A stretch of 64,000 nt of DNA from Siniperca chuatsi. Its lineage: Eukaryota; Chordata; Actinopteri; Centrarchiformes; Sinipercidae. The number at the start of each line of letters is the position of its first letter. Positions within the stretch are counted from its first letter, which is position 1. A program made the position numbers and the translations under genes. The stretch lies in the NCBI RefSeq assembly GCF_020085105.1, contig NC_058055.1, positions 16,439,822 to 16,503,821 on the forward strand. The letters run 5' to 3'. Positions 8,901-44,878 of the stretch are shown here, piece by piece. The notes below the pieces were generated by a model. It was not told the origin of the DNA and did not search any database. It saw only the letters and a list, made by a program, of their open reading frames with translations.

Positions 8901-11900
8901 ATTTCCACTGCATGGTAAAGCTTGGCTCAACTCACTTTTGGTACCAGGTACTTTTCTCGATTTTGTTTTCCACTGCAGATAGTATCACGTCAATGTAGGC
9001 GAGATTCTTAGCTGAATGTCATAAAACTGCTGTGCCATCATCTTCAACACATCACAAACACACACAAAAAGGAAACTCTCACTGGATCCTTTCATCGGCA
9101 ACCAAACAGGAACATCTGCACTTTGTCAATTGACCACGGCGTGGTTTTAAAAAAAATATGGGTCAGGTGAATGAAAAAAATTGCGGTCGCTATTGGTAGC
9201 GATTTCCCATGTCACGCAAATGACGATTCTCTCTGACCAATCAGTGGTCTGCGGTGGTCTTTTAGTATCGGCTCAACTTGCTTGGAACCTCGACCGAGGT
9301 GATACCAAAAAAAGTACCAGGTACGAGGTACTATCCCTAACTTTTGCCAATGGAAAACCAAAAAAGAATGGTTCCAAGCGAGTTGAGTTGAGTCAAGCCG
9401 TGCCATACCATGCAGTGGAAATGAGGCAAAAGAGAGAGCATCTGTCTGACACCTGTAGAAGTTAATAACAGTTTGGATGAGAGGTCTATGTGAAGTTCCT
9501 GATGTGAAGTCTAATAAAACTGGACTGATGCTGACAATGTTGCACTCGAAGAAAGGAAAGGATGAGGCAGTTACCCTCCACCACCTTGATCAGTGCTCCG
9601 TCCTGGATGCCCTGGATGGAGCTTAGCTCTGTGAGGCTGTTGAGCGCGGTGCCTCCCAGCTGGAGGGAGAAGCATGTGCGGTGGCATGTGATCTCGTGCT
9701 CCATCAGCACTTGGTGCAGCTCCGCCACCAGCAGCTGGCCTGACACCTGAGAGTGGAGGAGAGACAGAGAGTTTGGATCGGAGCGATTCAGAAAGACATG
9801 TAGATACAGTGAAGTGTCTTTAAGAAAATAATGACAGCAGTACAGCAGAACCTGAAGCTCAAAACTTTCTTGTCCAGGAGGTTGAATTCTGACAGTAAAG
9901 CCGGTCTCTTGGAGATCAACTATGTCACGAATGCTGAGTTGTTTGCTTTTATCAACATCAGACTGCACTTGACGATCATCCTCAGGGCTTTCTTCAATTT
10001 GACTTGGAGGTGCTGTTGACGACAGAAGAGACAAAAAGGGTATGAAACCTGGCTGCGTGATATGGAGGATCATTTTTCCCAGAATTGAAATTAAAAGGGA
10101 AAATGGAAAACAAACTATTATTATATTTCAATGCAGGATAATCATGCAATAATAAAATGTTTAAAAAAAGGAAGCTGGAAAAGGAAATTATATACTGAAA
10201 AGCCAAATGGATGTTATTAAATGATAATTTGAAAAAGACAAGTGAAATCTCCAATCCTTAAATGGAAAATATAAAAAGCTAAATGCTCAAATTAAAAGCT
10301 TAAATGCAAAAACTTACATTGATACATATAATTGAAGAGGAAATAAAAAACATAATTACAAAAAATGGAAAGAGAAAATAAATTAAGATGCAAAGTTACC
10401 GTTTAGATTTTCAATTTTCCACCCTCCTTTTTGCATTTGACTTTTTCCATTTGGTATTTCACATTTCACTTTTCATTTTTTAATTGCCATTTCACAATAT
10501 CAATTTGTCATTTATATATCCAGTTTCCTTTTTCTTTTTAACATTCAATTATAGCGTGATTATCAAAATATAATAATACAGTAGTTTATAATAATATAGC
10601 CATTTCCACTTTTAATTTTAATTCTGAGTAAAATTATCGTGATGATCCATTGTACAAGCTGCGAGTAGAAGCCTTAGGAACATGTTTGAATATCACAGTA
10701 CATAGACAAAAACACACTGTACATAGAAAATACAAGCAAAGATAAGTCAAATCACGCACCTTTGACATGTGCCGCTGCCAGAAACAGCCTGTCAACTGAA
10801 AACAAGGTCATTTGGATCATCTCAGCCCCGTCCTCCTCCACCTGTGGCAGAGCTGTCTCCAACTCCAAAACATGCTTGTTGTCGTCCTCTTCCCTCTTTG
10901 GTGGGTGCAAGTTTTCCTGCCATTGAATATGATCTGGATTTAAATTTGACTGATCTGCTGTCAGATCTGTGTGGTGGTTTGTTTTTGTGTGGATGATGTT
11001 ATGGTCATTTTCATTTACATTCTGATCTGACACCACATTCGCCTGTCCCATCTGTGCATTACCCTGATTACTCTGTTGTGTCAGGTCTACGCGACACTCG
11101 GCAGGGTCAAAGTTCTCCACAATTTCAGTGTTGATGCTGTATTTTGTCATCTGTGACTCCACTGCAGCAATGTTCTCATCCATGTTGTTTACATTGTGTT
11201 CAGTTAGCATCACAGAGGTGCACTCTGTGCATTCAGTGTTTTGTTCTTTGTCCTTAACGTTCTCCTGTGTCAGCAAAGTGAAGCACTCCTTCCAGGCAAA
11301 GTCTGTATTTTCCTGAGCAGCAACAGTCTGCTGCTGCAACTTAAAGACATTCTCGTCGTCAGTGTCTAACTCCTCTATCATCTCTGTATTTTGTTCCATT
11401 TGAAGTGTATGCTTTGTTAACGTGGTGGTCAGTTCCTCATGGATGTGACTCTGTTTCAGTTCTTTCTGTTCATCTTCCTTGTGTCCGAAGGCCAGTTTGT
11501 TTTTCTCTGTCTGTCTTTCCACCTTCCCTGGCACCTCTAACTCAACAAAAGCGTCTATGTCAGACCAGGTTCCAGACAAGGAATCTATCCTTTTCTTTTG
11601 TTTCTCTGATGACATTTCTGAGTTTCTCTCTCGTGATGTTCGTGTATCTGTTTGTGCCTCCAAGAGCACAGCCACCTGCATCAATGTTTCCTGTTCTTCC
11701 CAAACATCCACAACCACCTCTTTTGCAGTGCCAGCATTTGTTAGTGTGTTTACTTCTCTCTCCACAGTCTCATTATGGCACACAAGTATTTCTGTTTGTA
11801 CTTCTGCTTGTGACTCTGTCTGAGTCTGTACCCCCATACCAATCTGTGTCTCCACTTCGGTCTGTGTCTCGACCTCAGAATACCCGATATTTCTCCCCCT

Positions 11901-18364: not shown

Positions 18365-18715
18365 TGAGAAATGCCTACGCGCTCTTATTTAATGTCATTC
18401 AGTTTGATTTCTCGCCCATAAAAGCTCTCTGATTTCTGCACCGGTGCTCGGCGTCTACCTGTAACTGTGCGCTCATCTCTCTGTGACCGGGGCCTACCGT
18501 GATACTGAAGCGGTGCCCTATTCAAAGCGTTTCTCATGGATCCTCGTATCGCCTCGGTATCTCTGTCCTTGATGCAGCAGAGATGGAGAAAACAAAAGAC
18601 CCGTGCAAAACGTCCAGTGTGCAAAATGGCACTTTTCCGCGTCTCTTTCTATGCTCTCTGGTGAGCTGTTTCACTGTTGCCGCTGGCCGACGTTTTTCTT
18701 AGTGTGAATGAACCC
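18365..18715 (-). repeat. Repeat unit with a conserved open frame, copy 1
   Basis: Read on the minus strand, this begins 'gggttcattcacactaagaa' and carries an open frame including LCCIKDRDTEAIRGSMRNAL. The same DNA and frame recur on the plus strand at 21763-22010, so this is an interspersed element rather than a gene. No homologue is recognised. Confidence 0.6.
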
Positions 18716-20580
18716 TGCTGCAGTCAAGAGTCGGAATAACCTCCTCATAACCTTCTGGCTGTACTTGCAGTACTGTGCCGCTGCTGTACTCACAACAAAG
18801 CAGCCCGGTATGAGGGGTGATTAGTGCCACGATGCAGGAAGAGGAGGAGGTGGAGCTCCATGGAAATGATGGTACCAGCTGTTGCCAACAATAAAGGAAA
18901 TTGGATTTTTTTCTCCTATGATGACATTGACCTAAAGTCTCACCCCACCTCTGGTGATGTTTTTCATCAATCTTTTGGAAAAGCTTATGTGTCATATGAG
19001 GCTATTCATTTATTTTCAGTGGAAGGAGAAGTATTTAGATGCCTAGTAAAAGTACCAATAGTGTAAAATATGTAAAAAAAAAAAAAATAAATAAAAATAA
19101 CGTAAAAATTCCCTGTTACAGTTAAAGTCCTGGATTCATATTACTATTATTAGCAAAACATTATCAAAAGTCAAAGTACTCATTATGAAGAGGCCCTTGC
19201 AGTGTTGAAATTATTATATGTTATTGTTATTGCTGATGTAATAAAGTATTAGCAGCATTTTAATGTTGTAACTGGTCAACACAGTGCCAGTTTTAACAAA
19301 TATTTATACTGTTTGGTAGTTTAATCAATAATGATGCACTATATTTTATAAAGTGATCAGGCTATATGTTTCTATGTGAAATCCTAATTTGCAAAATAAC
19401 TGAAATAAATGTAGTTGAGTAAAAAGCAGAATAATTCCTCTGAAATGTAGTGGAGTATTAAGTATAAAGTTGCAGAAAATGGAAATACTCTGACCCAGGA
19501 AGTACAAGTACATGCACAGTCTCACATTTAAAGAAAATTCTCAGAAATCTTGTCATCCTCTAAAACGCGGATGCATATTCTGATTACGGCTGCAGCCATT
19601 TTCATTATCGATTAATCTGCTGATTATTTTCTCAATTTATAGTATTGTCTATAAAATGTCAGAAAATTGTAAAAAATGTTATATGTGATCATTTTCCACA
19701 GCCCACGTGACATCTTCAGATGTCTTGTTTTGTCCGACCAACAGTCCCAAACTCAAAGATATTCAGTTAACTATCATGTAAGACATGAAAGAAAAACATC
19801 AAATCCTCACATTTGAGAAGCTGAAACCAGCAAGTGTTTGGCATTTTTGCTGAAAAATGACTAAAACAAGCCAAGTCAAGTCAAGTTTATTTATATAGCA
19901 CATTTCATACGACAGGCGTAGACTCAATGTGCTTCAAAATAAAAGCAAGCAAGAAGAAATAGGCAGAAATCATGCATAGCAAAAACATATTAGATAGCAA
20001 CATATAAGATAAGGAGGTATTACATATATGGAAACACATAAGATAAAAACAGCAAGATAAAAAGGTATTACAATAAAAATGGAATAAGATAAGTAGCTAT
20101 TATCATTATTATTAAAAAGGGAATAATAATAATGATAATACTAATTCTATGATAAAAAATTTACCCATTAACCACACACTTTAAACCTAAGTAAAAGCTT
20201 GTGAAAAAAGATAGGTTTTTAGTCTGTTTTTAGTCTATCAACTAATCAATCAATTATTTATTAATGAATCTGTTTAATTTAATACTACATACTACCTGGA
20301 TGACTGATTACTCAACACAAACACTGACTGGTTGCATCCAAACACTTTCAGCAGACTGCTGCTCTTCTCTTCACTAGTCAGGAGACTATTTAGAGAGGCA
20401 GGTGAAGAGATGCATGAGGTGAAGAGTGGAGGAGATCAACCATGTCTCATAATAAACTTTTTTTCATATAATAAAATGTTGCAGTAAATAAATGAAAGCT
20501 GTATACAATGGCCATTCATTCCATAATACTGAATATGAGATAGATGATGAAGAAGAAGAAAAACTGCACAAGTTCAGGTT
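18716..20580. other. Intergenic repeat-rich stretch
   Basis: No gene seen. It holds AT-rich fish repeats, including the 'gaccaacagtcc' family at 19590-19855 and a common fish element beginning 'agtcaagtttatttatatag' at about 19880-20230. Confidence 0.6.
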
Positions 20581-20703: not shown

Positions 20704-23700
20704 TCATCTGTGTCTTGTGAAATGGTTGACGAGGGTAAGCCTCTCCTGGCTGCCCCCCTGTTTCTCACTCATGCTGGGGAGGGCAACAGGCTCACTGTGT
20801 TGAGAGGTCTCGTAGTAAGGACAGACTTTTAGATGAGCAGATATAGGAGGGACGTCTGCCATATGCCACGAATCCACTGAGGAGAAGAGGTGACTGAACT
20901 CCCACACCTGGAGAGAAACAGGAGGAGAGTCAGGGAGAGAGAAAACTAAAACATGGATCACCGTTAGTATGGTATTAATTATTATAAAACATTACAATGA
21001 TGGATGGATTGGATGATTTAGTATGTATATCTCACAGGTTTGGCCCTCCACTTGGCTCCCCCATGTGAGTAGGTCTTCCTCTCCCAGCGGAGGGTGACCA
21101 TCCCTCTCTCCTGCAGCAGAGAGGAGCACACCTGCCTCATGAGCCGGGACACCAGAGCCAGCTGGGACAGGGACAGACTGTCCAGGAAACTGGCCATGTG
21201 GCACAGCACCTCGTAGGGCAGCGAGCTCAGAGAGTACTCGCCTCCTCTCTTCCTCTGAGGGGTGGAGGAGTCCACTGTGCTCCTGGACGCCTGGGAAGCG
21301 TCACCTACTGAGGCTAAAAGTGTCGGACGCAAGTTGAAACTCCTCAGCTGCTGACTGCAGGGAAGAAAAAATACTAGTTAGGATTTAATTCACTGAAGCA
21401 AATACAAACCCAAGTGCAATCTGTTTGTGTGCATCACAACACAACTAAGATTGTGTGTGGTCAAGAACTTAATAGTTTAGCTTCATTTTACTTTACTGTG
21501 TCGTGAACATCAGAATCAGAATCAGCTTTATTGCCAAGTAGGTTTACACATACAAGGAATTTGCTTTGGTATTTTGGTGTAAAACCATAAACATAGTAGA
21601 AATATAAAGAAATACAAAGCAAGTACTGCAGGTCAAGAATCATAAATATAAAATATAAAATTGACAATAAGATATTAAAGAATATAAACAAAATAAGAAA
21701 ATAATAAAGAATATGTTCAATATGACTGTTATTTAAATGATGAATGTTTGTACAATGTGCAGCAGGGTTCATTCACACTAAGAAAAACGTCGGCCAGCTG
21801 CAACAGTGAAACAGCTCACCTGAGAGAAACGAGGAAAAGTGTCATTTTGCACACTGGACCTTTTGCACGGGTCTTTTGTTTTCTTCATCTCTGCTGCATC
21901 AAGGACAGAGATACCGAGGCGATACGAGGATCCATGAGAAACGCTTTAAATAGGGCACCGCTTCAGTATCACGGTAGGCCCCGGTCACAGAGAGATGAGC
22001 GCACAGCTCTTTAGCTGCTAAATGCTCCACTATGTTAACCAGCTAGTTGCTAATTGAATCTGTCTGCTGTTTGGTGCCGAGCAGGTAGTGTACAGTGGGT
22101 TGTGTCTGAAAATGGCGCTATGAGAGCAGTGACAGTGAACCAAATCAGAAAAGTTGTGGGCCGGACAGCTAAACAATAAGTTGAAACTTGTTATAAAGCT
22201 CTATAAAGCCGAAGGGAGCTGCAGATTGGAGTGATTATTCTCTGTAGGTTCATCATTACCCTGGCTACTTTATTTTTACATAGTTATTTGATCTGTTGTT
22301 ACTATAAAAATCCCTTGTTGCTATAAAAATACAGATTATAGCAGCTTTAAGTTCCAGTGTCACTTTAAAGTTGCATTTAAGAATTTACAAACTTTAAGGG
22401 GAACTCCTTAACCGATTTTACACATCAAAGTCTGGTCTTGGGGAGTACTGCTGCGTATGTGAAAAAAGTTGTATTAAACCTTTTGTGGCTCCAGATGGAG
22501 CAGTGAGAGTGAACCTAAACAGTAAAGTTGGGCCTGACAGATAAACTGACAGAGCTGCAGATTCAGATGATAATTCTCTGTAGGTTCATCAGTAAGGTAG
22601 TATATATATCAGTAGTATCATATGGGCAACACTTTCACATTGTCATTTGACACATTGTTATTATAAAAATATCGATTATAGCCACTTTAAAATTTAAAGT
22701 TGTGAAAATATTAAAACACAAAGGGCAGACCTAAATGTTGGAATCTGGACAGATGAATGTGAGTTGTGCTCACTTATAGGAGACGGTGGCTTCATGTGTG
22801 GAGGGCTGAAACCTCCTCTGGCTGTAGGTGCATCCCAGATACGCTAGGGGGCATCTCTGCATGAACCATCCACTCAGACACGTCTGGATGTCGCTGTGGA
22901 CGTTCCTGGAAAGGAGATGACGATTCATGCATTCATCAAACACGCCTAATATGTCCATCCACAGCTAACGAAAAAGGCACTCATGTCCAAGCGTTTTGCA
23001 GGTGGTGGACAAACGAAAAAGACACTGAAAATAAAAATGGATTCTACTCCTATTTTACATGAACAGTATTTATCCTGCTAGTTGACATTTACAATTGGTT
23101 GCATCATTTTGGTAATCCACACTTGTTGAATTCTCAGTGACAAATCAACATTTATCACTTTAATGTTAGTACGTTGAGATAAGAGGGGCAAACATGGCAT
23201 GTGCCAGGAGTAAGGGAGGCACCTGAAATGTGTGGCGAACTCTCTGCGGTGGAAGCTGTGACCACAAAGGAAGGTGAAGACACAGCTGGCTCTGTTGTGT
23301 CTGCTGTTCACACTCTCTGCCTGCAGCTGAAGATGAAGCTTCAGCGGCCTGTCCACCACCACCTCCGCCAGAGTCGTCTTCCCTTTAAACGGAGCCGAGC
23401 GGAACGAGTACGTCTGTGTTCCCTCGTCAACAAAGAGCCCATCCACTGCCTTTGACTTGCTGATCTGCATGGAAGCCAATCGATCACAATACATAATTAA
23501 TTATAGTTAACGGACCAAACCAACGTTTTTACATGTTTTAGGCCATTTAAAAGGGTCATACATTATGTATTGTGTACATGTATTTTAAACTTTTGAATTA
23601 GTTTATTTTTTACATACATTCCAGGAAGCCGTTGTTTCCCACTCGTTTCCATAGTGCCTCACATACCATAAGTTCGTATGCAGGAGTCGATTTCTCTTTT

Positions 23701-26700
23701 CCACACAATATGAAAATCAACTTGCAGTAACGTAAAACTGGTTTTGGTCATGAAATGCACCACAGAGAACGTCCTATTAAAATCTTTTTTTTTAGTGGGC
23801 AATTCAAGTTTAGCAGTCAACACTGAAATCCAGCCATAATACCATATTCCATAGACAGAAAAGACATGAAATCCCTAAGCCACTAAGAGATTGTTGGATT
23901 TCCACTGAAGTTCTGTAAAGGATGGTGTCTTGTTAATAAAGATACTGTATAAAGGCTAAAATGTCTAACTATTTGAGAAGTAAATGGGTCCTCGTTCCTT
24001 GTTAACTACTCAGTATTTTGTGTACCTCATTGTAAAATGTTACAAAAAGTATTATACACATATGGTCTCTCATAATATGTTTCAGGAAACCTCAAAATAA
24101 AATACTAGACAGGGTAATTCCTGAAAGTCTCATCTAGCTTAACTGAGTTCCACTTTCATCTCCCTCATCAGGTCATGTGTGCGCAAAGTTTATGTATTTT
24201 TGTTTTGAATAATCTTAATAAAGTTTATGTATTTTTGTCATCAATAATCTGACTGACCTTGTGACCCATGACCTCCTTCTCAGCGTAGCCCAGCAGGGTG
24301 GCTGCTGCTTCATCACAGAACCAGTCCTCTTCGTTGACTCCGAGGTCCGATGTGTCCACACTGCGAGGCTCACTCTGAGCCCGCGCAACCATGTCGTACC
24401 GATGAGCCCGCTGATTGTAGTGATAGCTGTCAGGGATCTTATAGGAAGAAGTGCATGAGAATATATTATATTAGAAACCAGGAGAGTACATTGACCACAT
24501 CTTTCGTAGATTATTATCATGTCTGGTTGACTATAGTGGGTTTTGTTGTTGCATATTTTAAAGCTGCATTGGGAAACTTTGCACATTAGTGGCTGCATTC
24601 GTCAGGACAAGGCAACTGTCTTGTTCCTGTTTTAAAGGCTGCTAAAAGGAGGAGATTCACAAAACACAAAACATTTAAATGTTTTCTCAGCTTCTTAGGA
24701 TGGGATCCCACAAGGACACACCATTTTCTGCCAAAGTTAGAACAGTTTTGGATAATTCACATGATGGATTTCTGTCTGTGCGTTTCTCACTGGTTCGAGG
24801 TGGACAGGGCTCCGTTGGAAAAGGGTGATGATAGGTAGGCTACAGGATTTAACTAATATTTGAATCAAAACGTGATGAACGTTTTGGGACTGTTTGCTCA
24901 TGTTGCCGGGCCACAGTCAATCAAATCTGACCAAACCACACTATAGACTGAATACAGATGGACTTAGCAAGATGTGACGTCACCCGTTAGTTTGCAGTGG
25001 AGCTGGTTTGAAGCCCTGAGTTGCAGCTTACAGTCAGCGCCATCTTTGGACCTTCCAAATAAGGAGTGTGGGGGGCGTGTTTCCGGAGGCAACAAGCCCC
25101 GCCCCCTCAGACCAAAGGCTTGTAATTAATTTTACTGGGATCGCAGTAATGTCACTGAATAAACACAAACTCTTGTAACAGTAACATTAGCTACTGTATT
25201 TAACGTAACTTTTGCATGTACGCCAAAATACTTAAAGCGAATACATTTATGGTGACTGACTCTCAGTCTCAGTCAGCCAACCACCAAGACATGGTGTCGG
25301 TTTGTTATGGACGAACTTCTATCAGTACCCTTGGTACTGCATAGCCTAATAGAATTATTTTCTCTTACATTACATTTTGGAAACACACCTACACAGTCCT
25401 GATGAAGCAGATTAACTTTGTTTAGAAATGTTAACTCTTAATATGTTTTTTTCCCCTCCAAACTTTAACTTTGATTTGATTTACTCATAAATATGTAACA
25501 TTTAAAAAAAAAAAAACTTAAGATTTTAAACCAGGTTTTCAGGGGCTTTAATGTTGTTGAGTGCAAATTTTATCTGGATGGAGCGCCACCTAGCGGCAGA
25601 TTTTGTATTTCATTCTTAAGTATGCAAGCTGATGCCAATTTTACAGTAAATAAATGTAGCCTGAATTCATCACCTTGAAAGAGCGCAGGGTTTGGACTGG
25701 GATAGGCTCCAGGCTGCCATAGACAAAATCTTTATCCCTCGGTGTACAGGCATGGATGTGTCCGAAGGTGAGCAACATGCGCCCATGATGTACCACATAC
25801 ATATTGTACTCCTGCGGGGTGAGATCCTCCCTCAGACGCTCCATCACCCCCTCCTGCCACGGGGCATGCCCTGTCTTACTTGTGTCTGGTGTGTCTGCAG
25901 CCGCACCATCTTTCTCTGTGTCTTTCTGGTCTTTTTTCACCACGCTGTCCTGCCTCTGTGCCTTCACCTTCTCACCAGGGTTTTGTTTGGGATTGTCTTG
26001 GTTTGCCTGAGCGACAGCACAGCCGCCTCTCTCCATGCTGAACATCATCTCACACAGGTTGTATTTCTCTGTGCTGAGGCCTGAGCTTTGATCCACACTG
26101 CTCTGTACTGTCTCTTCAGCAACATTATTCTCACTCAAGCTGTTTTCTGCAGGAACAGATGTGGGCAGACCTACAGGAGAAATGTAAAGTCATCAGATTA
26201 GGAAAGAAAATAACAGAACCTGTATTATTTCGGGTGTTTAAAGCATTTTCAGGTTTCAGGTTTTCAGGGCCTTTAAAGTGACTCCTAACTAAGGTGGTCA
26301 TCTCGTGTTGGACCAAAGCACCATTATTTACCTTCATTGGTATCTTTGTTTGCAACTCCATTGACAAACCCTCCCACTGCTGTCTCCTCTTTCTTCTCAT
26401 CCTTTATTTCCTCCTCTTCTGCCTCCATCAGCTCTGGATAGAGGGGCTTCATTTTCAGGCGGCTGTAAAGGTCTGACTGATCAACCAGGGCCATGGCGAG
26501 ATCCAGAGCCTCCCCCTGGCCCTCAGTTTCCTTCATCATGTTCTCCTGCAGGGCTATGTTGCTGTGTGGGTTTGTGTCATCAGTCGGGCAGCGGAGCCAC
26601 TCCATGGAGCAACACACCACGCTGGCCGGACACACCTGGAGGTGAGCAGCCTGCGAGGAGCGGGGCAGGTGGACCGGACAGCCGTACTCAGCGTTGAGGC

Positions 26701-27049
26701 AGGGCACCCTCACGTTAGGGCAGAGCAGCAGGTGATCCTCCTCTTTGCACAGGTGGAAGAGAGCTCCACAGTGCAGGCGGCAGGGGATGACCGCGCAGCA
26801 CACAGAGACCTCCACCCGAGCCCTGCAGCGCCGGCTGTAGCAGGAATCACAGTGGACATGCTGTCGCACCCTGGAGGCCCGAGAACGATGACTCTGATTG
26901 GATGAGAAAGGAAAAACAGTGGAGCCAACTAGGATGAAAGAATAATTAAGGAGAAAGATGAAGATTTACAACATACATCAAGGTTGTATAATACTTAACT
27001 TTTAATTCAACACCGAAGAATTATATCTGGAAAGTCTGTGACTCACCAT
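20704..27049 (-). CDS. fbxo40: F-box protein 40, left copy
   Basis: FBXO40 is the muscle F-box adaptor of an SCF ubiquitin ligase; in mammals it targets IRS1. Exons in order: 27047-27049, 26332-26893, 25674-26170, 24258-24437, 23223-23464, 22774-22905, 21036-21354, 20704-20907. All phases agree, giving 712 residues (human is about 709). An N-terminal TRAF-type zinc finger (Cys16, Cys19, Cys24 and following, ending VCPASVVCCSMEW) leads to a variable acidic part. The conserved middle (APWQEGVMERL; YNMYVVHHGRML; TPRDKDFVYG), DTSDLG, and the Cys-rich segment (RCPLAYLGCTYSQRRFQPS) follow. The F-box (SLSSLPYEVLCHMASFLDSL) is at about residues 579-619. The initiator Met is the only codon in its exon (ATG/GTGAGT). 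This copy keeps the human-like central region but has extra introns. It is one of a head-to-head pair. Confidence 0.92.
21488..21770. repeat. Common fish repeat in fbxo40 intron
   Basis: Contains 'cagaatcagctttattgcc' and 'acacatacaaggaatttgct', a very common fish interspersed sequence. A reversed fragment occurs at 37862-37918. Confidence 0.7.
21763..22010 (+). repeat. Repeat unit with a conserved open frame, copy 2
   Basis: Inverted copy of the unit at 18365-18715, sharing the frame through GRPRSQRDER. It stops at 'gagcgcacag' and runs directly into another repeat family at 22010, so it is truncated or chimaeric. Confidence 0.6.
22010..22730 (+). repeat. Dispersed repeat R1, copy 1
   Basis: Carries 'tttagctgctaaatgctcc', 'gagcaggtagtgtaca' and 'atggcgctatgagagc'. 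The same words recur at 30255-30790, 33425-34110 and, on the other strand, 55130-55565. It lies within an intron of the left fbxo40. Confidence 0.75.
24600..25670. other. Large intron of the left fbxo40
   Basis: Between the exons at 24258-24437 and 25674-26170. It holds GC-rich repeat-like sequence near 24970-25120 and A/T runs. No exon or RNA gene was seen. Confidence 0.5.
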
Positions 27050-27082
27050 ATCTACAGGACTTTGAATCAGAAGTTTTGTATC
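27047..27082 (-). other. Short exon carrying 5'UTR plus the start codon (left fbxo40)
   Basis: Acceptor ttcttccag/GATAC at 27083 and donor ATATG/GTGAGT at 27046. The last three bases are the ATG. A further non-coding exon upstream ends at 27680 with a strong donor (CTTG/GTAAGA). Confidence 0.65.
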
Positions 27083-28192
27083 CTGGAAGAAAAATACAGA
27101 AAATTGACTGATCCACCGTCACCGGTCGCATATTTCAGATTTTTATGACTAGGTCAACCAAAGAGTGAATACCCCCCTGTTTTATTTGAAGGATTTTTAG
27201 AGGCCTGAAGTGGTAAACATATCCAGTAATTCACAATGATTTTGGGTAGCATGTTTATCTTTTTTGTTTAGTTTCCTGTTGCTTCAGATTTATACTGTGA
27301 CCCTTAAGGTTGGGTCCAATGACACAGGCCACACAACAAATCAGCAGCACAGAAGGACAGTTATGGGAAGCAATTTGCACTGATGCAACATCATTTGTCC
27401 TTCATGCACTCAGCATAAAACAAATGTTACTTGGTTAGGGCCTATATTGTAGTATTGTTCAGTTGTATGTCCTGTGGCACTGTAAATCTGGCGGTTCAAA
27501 ATCTCAACAGTAAATCAGACGAGCACTAAAAGCAACTGAAATATTTAACTTCTACAGTTTTATTACTTGTCTTAGTAGTTTCACTGTTCTGCTTACAAAT
27601 TTAGATCAACAAAAACAGACATCAAAGTATTTCAGCACATTCACAAGGGGATCGAACCTTATCTACACAAAGGTCTTACCAAGGTGCCACAGCAGACGTG
27701 TTGTTTCCTCTTTGGTTTTATAACGTTGCTTTCGGTCCCCGTGCTCTTTGAACTGACAGGTTAAAATTAGCCAAGCAGCACCAAGCAGGTTCAGCAGGAG
27801 ACATAATTCCCTCCTCAGCTTCTCACTCTGCTGCAGTGGATTCAAGCCACAGCCACCAAACTCATTCATTCTGGTGCAGGATGAATGTGTCTGAGCACCT
27901 GTTTCCAGTGCAGAATAAATAGTTAATCTTTTGTTAGAATGATTGCAATAAAATACACACTGACAATGTTTTGGTAATACTTGAATCTCCACCAGAGGAC
28001 GCTGTTTGGATGTTAAATAAGACTCAGCCTCATTTTGCTCTCTGCAGGTTGAAATCAATTGTCTGCAGCACCACAATATGACTCAGAGGGAAGAAGGTGA
28101 GAGAGATTTCCTGATGTAAGTGGCTGCAGGCGCTGGTAACCCAAACCATGTTTCTGACCACCTGTGTAACATTTCTCAGTCAGTACTCAGCT

Positions 28193-28202
28193 CTATTTAT
28201 AA
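28193..28202. promoter_or_regulatory. MEF2 consensus / TATA-like site between the two fbxo40 genes
   Basis: CTATTTATAA is a perfect match to the MEF2 consensus CTA(A/T)4TA(A/G). Its minus-strand reading, TATAAATAG, could also act as a TATA box for the left gene, about 520 bases before its 5'UTR donor at 27680. An E-box CACCTG lies at 28159-28164. FBXO40 is muscle-specific in mammals, so a MEF2/E-box pair in the shared spacer is expected. Function is inferred. Confidence 0.5.
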
Positions 28203-28489
28203 CACACACACACATAGCACAGACACTTGGTCTTTCAAGCACAAGACAGAGTCCAAGGACAGTGTTTCTATCCTTTCCTTACCGCGGTAGGCTAAAGTCT
28301 GTAATTCACTGTTCCCATTGACTCTAATGCCACAGGACTCTGCTGGTATCCTGCCATTGTGTGTTTACATGCAGTTTTTTTCAAGCTGATTGTACTGTGA
28401 GACTTTGAGATTCATCATTTCTTCTCTGTTTGCAGGACAGACCTGCAGCTTCAGATAAAAAAAAAAACTGGTGCCAGAGGATCTGAAGC

Positions 28490-31400
28490 ATGGTATGGTT
28501 TTATTTTGCAACTGTAGCATCAAATGTTGTTAAAACATTCAGTTTTCCACTTTTATTTCCCCTTAAGTAGCTTTAAGGTTGACTGTATCATATACAGTAT
28601 ATTCTGTTTTGGCTCTTTATTGAAGCTATATGATGTTTACACAAAATGAAATATTCAAATCCATGGTTGAACCATTCAGTCAAAATAAAATATTGTCTTT
28701 TGAATCATATTGTACACAAATTCCCCAAATTCAGCCTGACATATTTGGTATCTTTAGAAACTTTAGGATCTCCTCCAGATTTTAAAATAAAGTTCTGTTG
28801 GTTTGAACAATGTTTGGCTGCACAGCACAAGTTTGTAATTAGTGACCCACCTGGGGGGGGTGATAGAGGTTAAAGCCTAATGATGCAATATAAATGCTAA
28901 TAAATATAACTAACCATTCAAATGTATTTTTCTTGACTCTAACAATCATTCTGTTCCTTAATTTTCTTTTTTTCCTTCCTAAACCCAATCAGAGTCATCG
29001 TTCTCGGGCCTCCAGGGTGCGACAGCATGTCCACTGTGATTCCTGCTACAGCCGGCGCTGCAGGGCTCGGGTGGAGGTCTCTGTGTGCTGCGCGGTCATC
29101 CCCTGCCGCCTGCACTGTGGAGCTCTCTTCCACCTGTGCAAAGAGGAGGATCACCTGCTGCTCTGCCCTAACGTGAGGGTGCCCTGCCTCAACGCTGAGT
29201 ACGGCTGTCCGGTCCACCTGCCTCGCTCCTCGCAGGCTGCTCACCTCCAGGTGTGTCCGGCCAGCGTGGTGTGTTGCTCCATGGAGTGGAACCGCTGGCC
29301 AGCCAATGATTCCCATTCTTATCCGAACACAGAGCTGCATGAAAACCTGCTCAGGGAAAGAGAGCAGGGAGCATGTCTGGACCTGGCCATGGCCCTGAAA
29401 GATCAGGACTGCCTGTTTCACTCCATGAAGATGAAGAAACTGTTCCCAGAGCTGGTCCAGAGTGTGGAGGAGGAAGAGAAAGAGGAAGAGAGGAGGGAGA
29501 AAGAGAGGAGGAAGGAGAAGCAGAAGCAGAGAAAGGCCACCTTGGAGAAGGAGGCAGCAGAAAGGGCAGCTGCAAAGAAAGCCTGGGAGTCTTTTAACAT
29601 GTTTGACATCAATACTCCTGATGAAAAAGACAATGAGGATGAAGATGAGGTTGAAGTTGAATATGAGCAGGAGCTAACCCAGGAGCAGAGAGAGGCTATT
29701 GCCAGGGGCTCAGGAGTGAATGCTGATTTGTTAGAAAACTACAGTGCCTGGGAGCGCATGTTCAGCATGGAGATGGGTGGCTGCAGGGAAACTGAAGGGG
29801 CAGCTGTTGCAGGCAAAGGAAAGGAACTGGCTAAAGGGAGAGGAAAAGGCCTGGACACTCTGACAGAGGAAGATATAGCAGATACCTGTATGGGTGCCAC
29901 AGCATCAAACACCTGCAAACAGGTGAGCAGTGCATGCATTGCTTCCTCCACATCCTCCTCCTCCTGTCTCGCTGGAAATCGGAAGAAGAAATTTGTGTAC
30001 GGGCATGTGGAGCCGATGAAGATTATCACTGTGCGTACCTTTAAGATCCCAACCAGCTTCTCTGCCAGGCAGGGCCGCATCCGCAACCCTGGTTTCTACA
30101 GGAGGGAGAGTCAAGCTGTGGATACCAGCGACCTGGGAGTGGCGCTAGAGGAGATGCCAGTGTGGGAGGAAGTTCAGGTGAGATAGAAAAAATTCATCCC
30201 CCTTATAATATTTTCAATCCATTGCACTTCTTTAGGAGAAAATGTCCTTTTTATACCGACAAAAACTGACTTTTTGGCCACTTTGAGGCAGCAGAAACAA
30301 GTTGTGAACATAACACTGACATATCTAGTTGCCTATTTACACATCCGGCAGACAAGGAGCAAACTTTATTTGTAGTCTTGTTTCCAGTCAGCCGATGAAT
30401 GTAAGTCCAATATTCACTCTCTTTTAGCTCTGTTTTTGGTCTCCACCGTCTCCTGAGGGAAATATCTGGCTCTTCTGCTGCTAAATGTGCCATGTGCACT
30501 AGATAGATACTAACTTTGTCATTTGGTGCTGAGCAGGTAGTGTACAGCTTAGAGCTTTTTCACTAAAAACAGCTGCATGCTGTGTCCGAAAACGACGCTA
30601 TGAGAGCGGTGAGAGTGAACCAAAACAGTAAAGTTGCGCCGTAAAACCAAAACAATGAGTTGAAAGAGGCTGAAGAGCTGAGGGGAGCTGCTGAGTCAAG
30701 TGATAATTCTCTGTGTACTACAAGTGACCCCTTTCACATTACACAATCATTTCATCCATTGTTATTATAAACAATGGATTAAAGCCCTTTAAATTAATAA
30801 ATACATTCTATAAGCTTGTATTTTCCTAATGGTCTGTCAAGCCAGAGAGAAATTTTCATTTCTTATCTCAATTAATTTTTACTTGCTTCAGAAGAATTTT
30901 TTTTGACAAATTCACAATATTTTAAAACCATTGCCAGAACAATTAGTCAGTCAATCAATTTGTCATTTATCATTTAAGCCAATTATCAAAAAAAAAAAAA
31001 GCCAACCAATATTTTTGGGGTTTGGACTGTCGGTTGGAAAAAACAAGTAATTTGAAGATTGTCTCTTTGAGCTACGGCACATTGTGATTTACTTTTTTTT
31101 TAACTTTTTATAGACAAATCAATCAAAATCAATTTGTGGGAGAAAATGTTGTCACAGGAAATATGTCAACATGTTCCTTACACTTGGAGCTACATCTGTT
31201 CTTTTAGATTAAATGTATTTTACATCCTGGTGCATCACAAGCCGTTTGTGACATAGTGCGACTATACTGCCATACAAAGCCAAAATGCAGTAACTACATA
31301 TTTAGTTAAGACCAGAATCTGACTGGTTGGCATTTACTTTAGCATATAAAGTCTTTTCATGCCACAGAAATGTATAACTTCAAAGAAAACAGCATGTTAA

Positions 31401-32499
31401 ATGTGTAGATAGCCACGACCAGCCTTAAAGCTAAATTTAAGTACTTACTTATTTATATCACTTATTTAAATGTATTTGAGTGTAAATTAATTAATGATAT
31501 TAATTTAAAGTTAATAATCACAAAATAGTAGATGGAAAGCTGAAAGACCACATTTGTTTGTTGATACTGTATTTCCCCATCATATTCCCTCACTTTTTCC
31601 AAAGGTCTATGTCAATGATTTTTTGTTGTAAAACAATGAGTCCAAAATGCATAATATTAAGGAATGACATCATATCCATCTGTTACAACTCCTTTTTCTC
31701 AACTGCAGGTTTTCTGCAGTTACCGCTCTCTGTCTTTGTAGGGCAGCATAAATATTCATATTTTCCCCATACAAAGAAGAGCGGACAAACATATGTTGCC
31801 TATTTTCTGACAAACAGAGAATCTTCTTCTCAGAAACATTCTTCAACATTATTAATCTATAAAAAGAAGAAATAATCAGATGTATCAATAATGAAAATGA
31901 TCATTAATTGCAGTCATACATAAGGGCATCATAATTTGCATTTGTTTTAAGAGAAAAAAAACAATAAAAGACATTAAATTACTTGCTCAGATGAGTTCAG
32001 TGCCATCATGTTTGTTTAAGACCTCATGACTCTAATTTCACTCCTTATAATTCCTGATAAAAATGATCACAAATATACTGAATAATTACCACATGATGTG
32101 TTTGATTTGCTCCTCAGGCCTCTCTGCTGTGCTCCCTGGAGAAGGAGCAAAGGGGTCACCTGATTGCAGAGAGCGTGTGCACAGATGGTCTGTTACAAGA
32201 TGAAGGTACACAGACTTACAACTTTCTGTCTGCTCCTTTCCGGAGAAACACGTCGCTGGCTGACTTGACCACTGCAAAACCGCTGGAGCTGCACCTTCAG
32301 CTGCAGGTGGAGAGCGTCACCAGCCGACACCACAAGGCAAGCTCCGCTTTTACCTTCCTCTGTGGACACACCTTCCAGCGAGGAGAATATGGCAAACATT
32401 ACAAGTGGGTTTTCTTTTTTTTCTTCTTTTTGTCCAAATACACTTTGGAATCCATATTTTAAATTCCTGCCTGCATGGGAAGCAAATTCCATTATGGTC

Positions 32500-32586
<87 letters not shown>

Positions 32587-35500
32587 CTTTTCTTTCTTTA
32601 TAGTTTTAAGATAAACTAAGTTATGGGACCTGAAAAAAAAATCAAATGTGTTTAAACTCATACCAGAGATAAGACCTTCACAGAAAGTATATTAGTAGAG
32701 AAAAGGAAATTATTAAAGTATTAGTGACTTATATTTCTATTACCATCATTATTACTCTATTCTGTAGGAATTCACTGAACCAATCTGATTTGTCCTAATG
32801 CACTAAACACCACCTGTCTGCCATTACAGTAACATGAAAACAAACGCTACAAGTTAAACTTCATCACTCAGGTCAATAGTAGTTTTATGTTTAATGATTG
32901 TATTGGGCCAAAGCAATGCACAATAATTGTTTAACCAAGTTTTATCATGTTTCATTTTCTAATAATATGCCCTCATATGCAGGAACATCCACAGTGACAT
33001 CCAGATGGGTGTGAATGGATGGTTCGAGCAGAGATGTCCCCTGGCGTACCTGGGATGCACCTACAGCCAGAGGAGGTTTCAGCCCTCCACACATGAAGCC
33101 ACCGTCACCTACAAGTGAGATCAAACTAATAGTTCATCTTTATTATTGTGTGGTACTGATGCACCTTTCTTTTTTAATTTTAAGTTAAAGCAACATATTA
33201 AAGTTGGAACAAAGGAAAATATAAGAGTGTAAACAAATTCAGCTGTGGAAAAAGGGCAATTTAATATATTTCTTTGATGTGTAATTGGAAGACAGAAATA
33301 ATTTAAATACAGTATGCCATTAAAGCCACTACAGTATTTGTAGAATATGGAAACTTTGGCGCCACCCAATGGTCAGCACCCCTGCGTCAGACTGCAATGA
33401 TCTGACCTGGGGACATTGGGATGGTCTCACATTTCATAAAAACATATTTTCGCGAACAGATGCCTATTTACATATCCAGCAGTTACAAGGCAACATTAAT
33501 ATTCATTCAGAGTCGTGTTTGTGGCCACCTGATGAATGTAAGTCCAATATTAACTCTCTTTTAGCTCTGTGTTTGGTCTCCACCAACTGCTGAGGGAAAA
33601 ATCTGGTTCTTTAGCTGCTAAATGCTCCACTATGTTCACCAGCTAGTCGCTAACGGTGTCTGTCAACTGTTTGGTGCTGAGCAGGTAGTGTACAGTGGAT
33701 TTTTCACTGAAAACAACTGCCTGTTGTGTCTGAAAATGGCGCTATGAGAGCGGTGAGAGTGAACCAAAACAGAAAGGTTGTGGGCCGGACAGCTAAACAA
33801 TAAGTTGAAACTTGCTATAAAGCTCTATAAAGCTGAAGGGAGCTGCAGATTGGAGTGATTATTCTCTGTAGGTTCATTGCTACAAGCGACCCCTTTCCCA
33901 TTACACATATTTATTTGATCCATTGTTACTATAAAAATATTGATTATAGCAGCTTTAAGTTTCAGTGTCACTTTAATGTTGCATTTAAGAATCTTTTATC
34001 AAACCTAAAGGGGAACTCTTTTTTTACTCATCAGTCTGTTTTGTTTCGCTTGGAGAGTACTACTGCATATGTGAAAAAAGCTGTATAAAGCCTTTTGTGG
34101 CTCCAGAGGGAGCTGCGTGAAGTCTGATAAATTGCCTCAAGTGATGTCATTTGAGTCAGTGTCGTTTGGGGCTGAAGACTACAAGTTTGAAAGTGAAAAA
34201 ATCCAGGGGTGCGGAATTAGAAAGACTCTGCTTGAGGCTAGCAGCTCGAGGCTACATTAACTGTTTTTAGCATAACGCACCCAAATATCTGACCAAATTG
34301 TGGGCAGTCGAGTTGCATTGTGGGTAACATAGGCGGCAGGTTTTGAAGGAAAAAGAACGCATAGATTAAGAAAGACTCTGGGATCTGCTGTACTGATCTT
34401 TATCCTTTTTTTTTTGACTGTCCTTCTGGAGTCTGACAATGTTATAGTAGAGCAATGCTAAATTGGTGGAGTAATCTTTCAACTGTTGACCAATAGGAAT
34501 TGCAACAACACTGATAAGGATCCTCATCTTCCAAACAAAGCAGGGAAGAGCAGTGAATTAGACCTGAAGTCCTGTATAGTTGCATCCCTTACTCTTAGCA
34601 CTGTCCTGTACTACAGAGTGGGGTGAAACACATTTAAAAGCCAACAAGTCTCAGCAGCAGGCAAAGTAATGCCATCATTGATTTATTGATTGGTATAGTT
34701 CAACAAGCCCATTAATCCCCAGCAGATAAATTACAATAGTTTCAACTTTGTTTTCAGCGAGGATCTGGGCTGCTTTAGCCTGCATCCCATCATCCCTGTC
34801 TCTTTGGGTGACGCCTCCCAGCCGTCCAGGAGCACAGCGGACTCCTCCACCCCTCAGAGGAAGAGAGGAGGGGAGTACTCTCTGAGCTCGCTGCCCTACG
34901 AGGTGCTGTGCCACATGGCCAGTTTCCTGGACAGTCTGTCCCTGTCCCAGCTGGCTCTGGTGTCCCGGCTCATGAGGCAGGTGTGCTCCTCTCTGCTGCA
35001 GGAGAGAGGGATGGTCACCCTCCGCTGGGAGAGGAAGACCTACTCACATGGGGGAGCCAAGTGGACGGTGAAGCAGAGGGTAAGAGCCAGTGTGTCTGTC
35101 AGGAGAATTTATGAGGAGTGACAGTGGGTGTTGCTTTCATCAGCAGCATCTGGGCAGTTTAAAGTATGTCATGTACATTAAAGAGAAACTCATTGTTATT
35201 TTATATGAGAGGGTCCAAATTAAGGTGAGAATACAATACGAGGCAAGACAGGATCAGGTAAGGGCGTAGGTTTGGTAGAAGTGTTGGGCGGCACATGAAG
35301 CCAGGTTGCTTATCGGGCTTTCCATATTAATTATAGTTTAATTTTTAAAAAATATTTGCAAATTTAAATTGTTTGGATAGATTTTTAGTGAGTAAATCAA
35401 GCTGAAACTATAAAATAAGGTTTTGAAAAGACACACAGATGTCTGCATCCCTAGTGGAAATTGTGTCCTTGGCATCAGGATTGAATATTCAGCTATCTCT

Positions 35501-35748
35501 CTCTTGCCTGTCTCTCTCTGTGACTTCAGGTGTGGCAGTTCAGCACCTTGTTCTCTCCTGTGGACACTTGGTGCTTCCAAGACGTGCCGTCTATCTCCGA
35601 GCATCTAAAGGTGTGTCCCTGCTATGAGAGAGAGTCCAGGACAGAGAAGATTCACCTGCCGCGTATCAAAGAGGAAGTCCAAACCAAAACAAGCTGTAAT
35701 GGTCCCACTCTGGTTAACTTGTTTCAGCAGAAGAGGATCATGATGTAG
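28490..35748 (+). CDS. fbxo40: F-box protein 40, right copy
   Basis: Six coding exons: 28490-28492, 28993-30177, 32118-32404, 32983-33114, 34758-35079 and 35530-35748, all in phase, 715 residues ending at TAG 35746-35748. The first exon (acceptor at 28435) contributes only the ATG. The zinc finger, DTSDLG, Cys-rich segment (QRCPLAYLGCTYSQRRFQPS) and F-box (about residues 576-616) follow FBXO40. Residues about 160-205 form a Glu/Arg/Lys-rich helix (EERREKERRKEKQKQR) absent from the left copy and human. The conserved APWQ...TPRDKDFVYG block of the left copy is reduced to a Ser/Cys-rich linker before KKKFVYGHVEP. Poly(A) signal AATAAA is at 35871-35876. Zinc-finger and F-box parts are nearly identical in DNA to the left copy. 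Zebrafish fbxo40.1/fbxo40.2 are likely equivalents, but I cannot say which is which. Confidence 0.93.
30255..30790 (+). repeat. Dispersed repeat R1, copy 2
   Basis: In the right fbxo40 intron 30178-32117. Shares 'gatgaatgtaagtccaatat' and 'agagtgaaccaaaacag' with the copies at 33425 and 55130. Confidence 0.75.
30880..31115. repeat. Fish dispersed repeat ('gaccaacagtcc' family, reversed)
   Basis: Reverse-orientation relative of the copies at 15075 and 60455 ('aatcaatttgtcatttatca', 'ttggactgtcggtt'). Confidence 0.55.
32502..32584. repeat. (AT)n microsatellite
   Basis: An uninterrupted AT run of about 80 bases in the right fbxo40 intron, about 100 bases after the donor at 32405. It is self-complementary and could extrude a hairpin. 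Confidence 0.95.
33425..34110 (+). repeat. Dispersed repeat R1, copy 3
   Basis: The longest R1 copy, in the intron before the F-box exon. It includes the 3' part 'gtgaaaaaagctgtataaag', also seen near 22460. Confidence 0.75.
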
Positions 35749-42954: not shown

Positions 42955-44878
42955 ATGTCTGGGACCAAACCACGTGAGTAACCTGTTTGATTGTTTATCG
43001 TTTGAATAACAGCAGTAGCTGTTTGATAGTTTGAAGTTTAAGCACTGGGTGTTTTAATGATTTATATCATTAATTAAACTACATCTGTAACAACTGATGT
43101 AGCTTTTGTATTTAACATGTTTATGTGTTCAGCCCGTGATGAGTTTCCGGACTCTGATGCAGAGGACACATCAGAGGAGCTGACAGAGGTGGTGTGTCTG
43201 GAGTCAGACCTGCAGGATGGACAGTAAGGAGCGGAAGGGGGGACGTTCACAGCCTGACAACCAAAAAACTCTTTTTATTTATACACCAGGACTTATTACT
43301 GACATATAAAATCATGTATGAACCATTAATTAAAAAATGATGATAGCCACACAAATATCCCTGACAACCTAAAACAGTTTTAATTGGCACATTATTACTT
43401 ATTATTGATATTTAAAGCATTTAAATGATTTGTGTCTACAGCCATGCTAGCTTCTCTGTGAGGCACCTTCAGCTAAACGTTAACATGCTCTCAGTGATAA
43501 TAAGACGGTGTAGTCCCTCATTCGTCCAGGAGTTTTCCATCGTAGAAAAGGTTTCAGTCATAGTCATCTGGACACTGTTTTCAGAATCAAGACGTTTCGG
43601 CTCCCATCCGGAAGTCATTCTCAATTGTGAAACTGGTCTAGGAACTCAGAAATTTAAGCTACTCTGTGTTACATAAGCCCTACCCTCAGGAAGGAGTCTT
43701 CCTGAGTATCTGTTAATAGCTAGTTTCACATGAAACTGACCTAATTGTTTCCAAGATGGCCCAGTAATCAGTAATCGGGCCTATTGTTTTCTGGCTGCAT
43801 CTACTTCATCACTGTTAAGTACCTGATTAGCATATGATTGGCTTGACCAAGGTATTAATACACTATGGTAAACGTTGGGCAGATTGAATCCCAGACCACC
43901 ATTTCTGTTTAAAGAGGGGTTTTCTTTTTTCACAAAAATGGCTTCTTTGACTCCTCTTTCAAACCAACTCTTCTCTCTACTTAGAATCTTCACCTCACTG
44001 TCTTCAAATGTGTGGTTTGTAGCACATGTGTGTGGCCTGATTACTGGGCCATCATGGAAACAAAAGAAGGTCAGTTTCAGGTGAAACTAGGCAGGGTAAA
44101 CAGCAGGGCCTAAGCAACACAGAGTAGCCTTCCGGATGGGAGCCGAAACGTCTTGATTCTGAAAACAGTGTCCAGATGACTACGACTGAAACCTTTTCTA
44201 CGATCTCAGTGATAATGTTAGCATGCTGATTAGCAGGTATAATGTTTAGCATGTTCACCATCTTAGTGTGTTAGCATGCTAACATTTGCTAATTAGCACT
44301 AAACATAAAATATTGTACAGTTCATGCTGATGGGAATGTTTGTCAAGTATTGGATGAACTGAAATTTTGACCTGATGATGGCGCTAGATGAAAAGTTAAG
44401 AGATCATCATAATTATTACAGTTCATCTCGAGGAGGACATGAGGGTCTGTACCAAATTTCATGGCAATCCATCCAACAGTTGTCGAGACATTTTACTCAG
44501 AACCATAAAAGTCAACCTGCTGGCGGTGGAGAGGAAAAGTCGGGATCACCAAAGTTAGTAGGATTCATCCTCTGGGGAACATGAATGTCTGTACCAAGTT
44601 TCATGCCAATCAATCCAGTAGCTGTTAAGATATTTCAGTCAGGATCAAAGTGGTGGACCGCCCGACAGACAGACATTGCCATCCCTGGAGACGTGATGCT
44701 AGCATGGCAAAAAAATAAGCCTACACTCACAGGCCTGACTATACAAACTTTAAACACAGAGTTTACAGAACAAACATCACAGGTACATCATCTCTATTTT
44801 CAAGCACACCTTTCTGAATAATATAAAATTCCATAGAGATAAAAAATCTCGTTTGGGTGTAAAGCTTATGGCACTATC

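Follow-up and report, generated by a model that had tools for sequence, protein, structure and literature searches.

We found that two neighbouring genes, presumably of FBXO40 type, in the fish Siniperca chuatsi share three near-identical patches of coding sequence within otherwise deeply diverged genes. The genes, here called G1 and G2, are intact models that lie head-to-head, with divergent transcription, at 20.7-35.7 kb of the 64,000-nucleotide stretch of DNA analysed (the window; contig C14:16439822-16503821). Our reading, held with a probability of roughly 0.88, is that they are old inverted tandem duplicates and that ectopic gene conversion, limited by homology, keeps the three patches alike. 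The pair is a mosaic whose patches contrast with a diverged remainder, a pattern absent from an unlinked pair of the same family; this in-genome control lends strong support to gene conversion between inverted copies of old date. All sequence evidence comes from one genome, whose unlinked paralogues served as the control, and genome-wide searches covered 719 Mb in 65 contigs.

Three shared patches in a head-to-head gene pair

Self-comparison of the window gave two long inverted matches between G1 and G2, and the Cys-rich exon contributed another. Patch 1 joins positions 26597..26893 (minus strand) in the zinc-finger exon of G1 (26332..26893, minus; zf-TRAF_2, 2.8e-34) to 28993..29289 (plus strand) in that of G2 (28993..30177, plus; zf-TRAF_2, 5.3e-37). 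It covers amino acids 2-100 and differs at 1 of 297 nucleotides, silently, just as the initial annotation had described. A wider inverted match around it (26589-26919 / 29297-28966) retains 97.6% identity over 332 columns; exact identity runs 8 nucleotides into the upstream intron (CCAATCAG) and ends mid-exon at codon 100. Patch 2 consists of 57 identical nucleotides (19 codons) in the Cys-rich exons (22774..22905, minus, in G1; 32983..33114, plus, in G2), and the run of that length noticed earlier could be located at 22782..22838 (minus) and 33050..33106 (plus). Patch 3 spans 259 nucleotides of the F-box exons, at 21047..21305 (minus) in G1 (exon 21036..21354, minus; F-box_4, 4.6e-52) and 34807..35065 (plus) in G2 (exon 34758..35079, plus, an end that keeps the frame open; F-box_4, 7.8e-54). 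Its four differences all fall within the first 70 nucleotides in the direction of transcription; a match of about 260 bases with these mismatches had been reported here, with G1 coordinates that proved 3 nucleotides off (21050-21308). Match midpoints at 27.94 kb (zinc finger), 27.95 kb (Cys-rich exon), 27.81 kb (exon 23223-23464) and 28.06 kb (F-box) bear out the near-symmetry about 27.94 kb claimed for the locus, and partner patches lie from 2.1 kb (zinc finger) to 13.5 kb (F-box) apart.

Four-fold degenerate sites differ between G1 and G2 at 1/52 and 2/46 positions in the two long patches, versus 48/78 elsewhere. Identical codons form an unbroken run of up to 77, including the start codon; when the 675 aligned codons were shuffled 10,000 times, the longest run obtained was 21. 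With the two long patches removed, the longest stretch is 19 codons, and 20,000 shuffles never gave more than 12, which places patch 2 beyond chance as well. Once the zinc-finger patch, the Cys-rich exon and the F-box patch are set aside, 189 of 445 aligned residues are identical, so that the middle coding region, previously called unrelated, is in fact homologous. Exons 23223..23464 (G1, minus) and 32118..32404 (G2, plus) match at 150 of 212 nucleotide columns and are homologues that have not been homogenised. Introns, by contrast with this coding sequence, are unrelated as had been proposed: a sensitive self-comparison found no match within them, the exon matches overrunning splice sites by at most ~35 nucleotides. 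Because diverged coding sequence lies between the patches, at least two and probably three separate tracts are needed, and in this sense the earlier description of conversion as repeated holds.

The lengths of the patches are within reach of short-read mis-mapping, by which reads of one copy could have been placed on the other during assembly or polishing, homogenising exons that were already similar. We consider such an artefact very unlikely. Mis-mapping presupposes near-identical patches, so polishing alone would have had no power to create the mosaic; moreover, 1 and 4 differences persist in the long patches, and the run in the Cys-rich exon is flanked by differences.

The initial annotation had also presented the locus as a ~15-kb imperfect palindrome. 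The head-to-head order stands, but inverted matches between G1 and G2 total only ~0.85 kb, or 1.34 kb of columns in a more sensitive comparison, out of 15 kb, and the intron numbers differ; the word palindrome therefore fits the gene order only. Palindromes of the Y-chromosome type have long, continuous, near-identical arms that include introns, and with so little matched sequence and unrelated introns we rejected that class here. The two genes stand head-to-head and share islands of identity.

Other intronic similarity is found among copies of a dispersed, abundant repeat, mutually similar and located at 22008-22501, 30327-30792, 33455-34113 and 55126-55503. A genome-wide query with 33455-34113 gave at least 41 matches, the best 40 of 9137 first-look candidates having been scored. 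A shared transposon as part of a palindrome was rejected, given that the repeat is dispersed and that its copies at 22008 and 33608 (33608-34113) are direct, not inverted. Separately, an inverted pair of ~250 bp with 93.8% identity, apparently a repeat element, has one copy downstream of G1 (18465-18722) and the other inside G1, within the intron that precedes its F-box exon (21758-22006).

The models of G1 and G2 were derived from splice sites and homology. G1 (minus strand, 27082-20704) has eight coding exons and a predicted product of 712 amino acids; G2 (plus strand, 28436-35748) has six and a predicted product of 715. In both, a small modelled start exon (27047..27082, minus, in G1; 28436..28492, plus, in G2) ends with the ATG as its last codon and the donor follows immediately, the G1 version, with donor gtgagt, being drawn from its splice sites and a layout like that of G2. 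The remaining exons are 25674..26170 (middle coding region), 24258..24437 and the last exon, 20704..20907, in G1 (all minus), and the last exon, 35530..35748 (plus), in G2. Three internal intron positions are common to the two genes, as is the one after the ATG; three introns, which follow the exons with ends at 26332, 25674 and 24258, occur only in G1, and one, after 30177, only in G2. These differences suggest differential intron gain or loss after duplication. One G2 intron holds a long (TA)n microsatellite (~32500-32584) that is open in several frames and yields false open reading frames.

Reverse-transcribed mRNA of one gene could also have converted the exons of the other. The patches are exonic, as replacement mediated by complementary DNA (cDNA) would have them, and their exact identity enters an intron only at the zinc-finger acceptor, for the 8 nucleotides given above. 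Yet they end inside exons, which disfavours whole-exon and cDNA replacement alike, they lie far apart with diverged exons between them, and intron number differs between G1 and G2; we regard this route as extremely improbable.

Unlinked paralogues and the age of the pair

The predicted G1 and G2 proteins carry zf-TRAF_2 followed by F-box_4, both above curated cut-offs, a combination that we take to define the FBXO30/FBXO40 family. We presume them to be FBXO40-type genes encoding SCF ubiquitin-ligase receptors. A genome-wide protein search, in which each of 28 candidates was scored and 19 matches resulted, located further family members at C7:26065068-26069113, C15:22037369-22039375 and C16:16528736-16531896, here named after their contigs. 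Each was modelled with a single large coding exon followed by a last exon and then codon-aligned with G1 and G2; in the C7 gene the intron preceding the last exon is apparently of GC-AG type, with donor GCAAGT (G000:C7:26063500-26070500). In an unrooted tree of the five genes, G1, G2 and C7 stand apart from C15 and C16. The solved zinc finger of FBXO30, 2yre, was compared with four genes, leaving C15 aside and with no named FBXO40 reference, and scored 119.7 bits over 71 amino acids against a C16 fragment, 90.7 over 83 against C7, 97.8 over 86 against G1 and 93.5 over 86 against G2. C15 and C16, which lie on different contigs, look like an FBXO30-like pair, C16 by its match to 2yre and C15 as the gene nearest to C16. 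Judged by titles and the starts of abstracts, we found no open-licence paper on fbxo40 in teleosts, zebrafish paralogs or fish gene duplication that deals with the G1/G2 pair, nor any that used the names fbxo40.1 and fbxo40.2, which we take to be zebrafish names and on which no result depends.

We used C15-C16 as the yardstick for an old unlinked pair. At identical amino acids, leaving out Met and Trp, G1 and G2 use the same codon at 96/97 positions in the zinc-finger patch versus 24/56 for C15-C16 (p=1.2e-16), at 77/79 versus 23/46 in the F-box patch (p=2e-10) and at 30/36 versus 12/34 in the Cys-rich exon (p=7e-5). No significant codon excess appeared in the seven other segments with data, where the lowest p was 0.09, in the opposite direction, and the start codon is uninformative. 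For G1-G2 versus C15-C16, these segments gave 24/37 versus 16/37 (rest of the zinc-finger exon), 13/35 versus 19/40 (exon 25674-26170), 17/25 versus 18/34 (exon 24258-24437), 23/47 versus 23/54 (exon 23223-23464), 1/5 versus 7/9 and 0/1 versus 1/1 (F-box exon before and after the patch) and 13/32 versus 14/29 (last exon). In nucleotide distance over the zinc-finger and F-box patches (166 columns, five genes), G1-G2 at 0.008 is ~40-fold closer than C15-C16 at 0.345; elsewhere (412 columns, Cys-rich exon included) the two distances are 0.413 and 0.383. The double ratio of these distances is 0.021 (95%, 0.005-0.047; 1000 bootstraps).

The same alignment bears on whether these exons could stay identical without any exchange, through strong constraint at the protein and codon level or through an element in the RNA or DNA. 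In every pair compared, protein conservation is higher in the zinc-finger and F-box segments than elsewhere, as such constraint would have it. However, among the remaining nine pairings of these five genes, 41-88% of four-fold sites and 34-53% of residues differ in these segments, which excludes constraint acting across the family, and we give almost no credence to the remaining forms of this explanation.

A tree from 368 non-patch columns places G1 and G2 as sisters with a bootstrap of 97 (alternatives rejected at p 0.029 and 0.033 in the approximately unbiased (AU) test). In those columns the G1 and G2 branches measure 0.70 and 0.51 substitutions per site, and those of C15 and C16 0.38 and 0.44; in patch columns the branch lengths shrink to 0.013 for G1 and 0.005 for G2. 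Identity outside the patches is 42% in G1-G2, G1-C7 and G2-C7 alike. The G1/G2 duplication is thus old, with an age comparable to that of the C15-C16 split provided that both pairs evolve at similar rates, and the silent sites of the patches are young. More tentatively, and with odds that we put somewhat below even, the inverted pair may date back at least as far as the unlinked FBXO30-like duplicates, possibly to the teleost genome duplication, and may have been exchanging sequence ever since, the three islands being the last survivors of a shrinking conversion zone. If so, the islands would preserve, as a natural record, the level of homology below which paralogues escape conversion.

Several observations weigh against our reading of conversion between old duplicates. 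The age yardstick presumes similar rates in G1-G2 and C15-C16. Over the 185 conserved 3' non-patch columns the grouping of G1 with G2 is not significant (alternatives, AU p 0.11 and 0.12), adding the Cys-rich exon to these columns leaves the alternatives at AU p 0.10 and 0.21, and even the patch columns fail to reject one of the two (AU p 0.07; the other, 0.02). In favour of our reading, no third copy of the patch sequences, which could have acted as donor, turned up; but the genome searches behind this negative score the best candidates only, and it is no proof of absence. Part of the zinc-finger query gave the best other DNA matches at 72% and 69%, and part of the F-box query at 73%. Within those searches, a third donor locus was set aside. 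Lastly, GC content at four-fold sites (GC4) is 79% in the patches versus 57.5% in the rest, in each of G1 and G2, but the unlinked C7 gene has the same contrast (47/71 versus 85/198, or 66% versus 43%; p=9e-4), and for that reason raised GC4 is not counted in favour of conversion. The contrast is not significant in C15 and C16 (p 0.58 and 0.15), and GC4 at amino-acid-conserved sites outside the two long patches is 65/95 in G1 and 60/95 in G2. Given the C7 contrast and the raised GC4 at these conserved sites, GC-biased conversion was rejected as independent proof.

What sets the limits of the patches

All patch ends lie inside exons, the 5' end of the zinc-finger patch excepted, and no patch crosses an exon-exon junction, leaving aside the start codon, whose length is too small to be informative. 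Conversion had been described as limited to the domains under selection. For patch 1 this is close to what we observed, amino acids 2-100 nearly coinciding with the zf-TRAF_2 match at 13-104 (numbered from the ATG). It does not hold for patch 3, which starts 49 nucleotides inside its exon and stops 11 (G1) or 14 (G2) before the exon end. The patch corresponds to amino acids 556-642 versus an F-box_4 match at 579-691; it thus begins 23 amino acids before the domain match and leaves 49 of the 113 F-box_4 positions outside, mostly in the next exon, where 34 of 67 amino acids are identical.

These boundaries also bear on whether selection, not homology, sets the patches, in that conversion was wider and only events that kept the zinc-finger and F-box surfaces identical were retained, as in paired receptors. 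Two of the three patches do overlap annotated domains, and the portion of the source available describes domain-restricted conversion in the oppositely oriented ceacam paired receptors of Xenopus (PMC5112662). We nevertheless judge this account unlikely, in view of the early start of the F-box patch, its stop inside the exon and the domain positions left out. With most patch ends inside exons and F-box_4 covered only in part, retained homology appears to describe the limits better than domains under selection, and selection for identical domains may add to it.

Conversion requires a run of high identity. After the duplication, introns and weakly constrained coding sequence would have drifted below the identity needed and escaped exchange, and purifying selection on the protein would have held three stretches above the recombination threshold. 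Breaks in one gene would then be repaired from its inverted neighbour, with patch sequence copied and silent sites reset, and every conversion would restore the identity needed for the next. On such a threshold, patch ends would fall inside exons and part of the F-box domain would escape, as seen in G1 and G2. We infer that repair, in the form of ectopic gene conversion, does the copying, that the homology threshold sets its limits and that both genes are expressed and working. The inverted order may further curb the copy-number change that crossovers would otherwise bring, an effect that the accessible part of the source ascribes to the palindromic order of Drosophila Hsp70 (PMC3924832).

Surroundings of the pair and comparison with known systems

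The region between the start exons, 27083..28435, is presumably a divergent promoter. Pattern counts found two MEF2-consensus sites there (27761 and 28193; ~0.3 expected after base shuffling) and two CASSTG E-boxes (27896 and 28159; ~0.8 expected), a set of sites that would suit a divergent muscle promoter. FBXO40 is described, in the section of the source available, as a muscle-specific SCF receptor that targets IRS-1 (PMC4443775). Elsewhere in the window, exons of a clustered-mitochondria (CLU) gene lie on the minus strand at 5097-10127, with Pfam CLU twice above its cut-off and CLU_N just below. A 76-bp inverted repeat at 43539-43614 / 44129-44204 (98.7% identity, ~0.5 kb apart) perhaps represents the ends of a small transposon.

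G1 and G2 combine old duplication and heavily diverged silent sites with three short stretches that are nevertheless near-identical, alongside an unlinked control from the same family. Any tree based on these domains will give the duplication a wrong date. If followed across related species, the pair also offers a place to measure the homology that conversion needs.

Comparable systems are known, and the likenesses drawn here extend as far as the available excerpts of the cited sources. In Drosophila, concerted evolution of the palindromic Amy pair is confined to coding sequence, and conversion is also described in palindromic Hsp70 pairs (PMC3924832). G1 and G2 resemble Amy-p/Amy-d and Hsp70Aa/Ab as linked inverted duplicates subject to ectopic conversion; unlike these genes, whose coding sequence is homogenised, they share three patches only, and most of their multi-exon coding sequence has escaped. 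With the ceacam genes of Xenopus they have in common opposite orientation, poorly conserved flanking introns and near-zero synonymous change; there, conversion is confined to one domain exon and, in some pairs, to parts of it (PMC5112662). The ceacam genes are, however, immune receptors under presumed pathogen pressure, with a single exon involved, whereas G1 and G2 are of ubiquitin-ligase type and have three patches. Among fish, the tail-to-tail long-wavelength-sensitive (LWS) opsins S180-2/P180 of poeciliids are likewise inverted neighbours, and conversion among LWS paralogues is discussed for them, with no mention of a three-island mosaic in those excerpts (PMC3087554). A review of Caenorhabditis notes that most reports of conversion concern exons and that introns, which diverge faster, may hinder it, although conversion tracts there often include short introns (PMC3966223). 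Purifying selection and conversion act jointly on old linked paralogues in mammalian HSPA1A/HSPA1B as well, but those genes are described as lying in tandem and as almost identical (PMC5865164), in contrast to the inverted order and islands of identity of G1 and G2. The process is thus already known, and G1 and G2 are a new example of it, distinguished by the depth of divergence outside the patches and by a built-in unlinked control.

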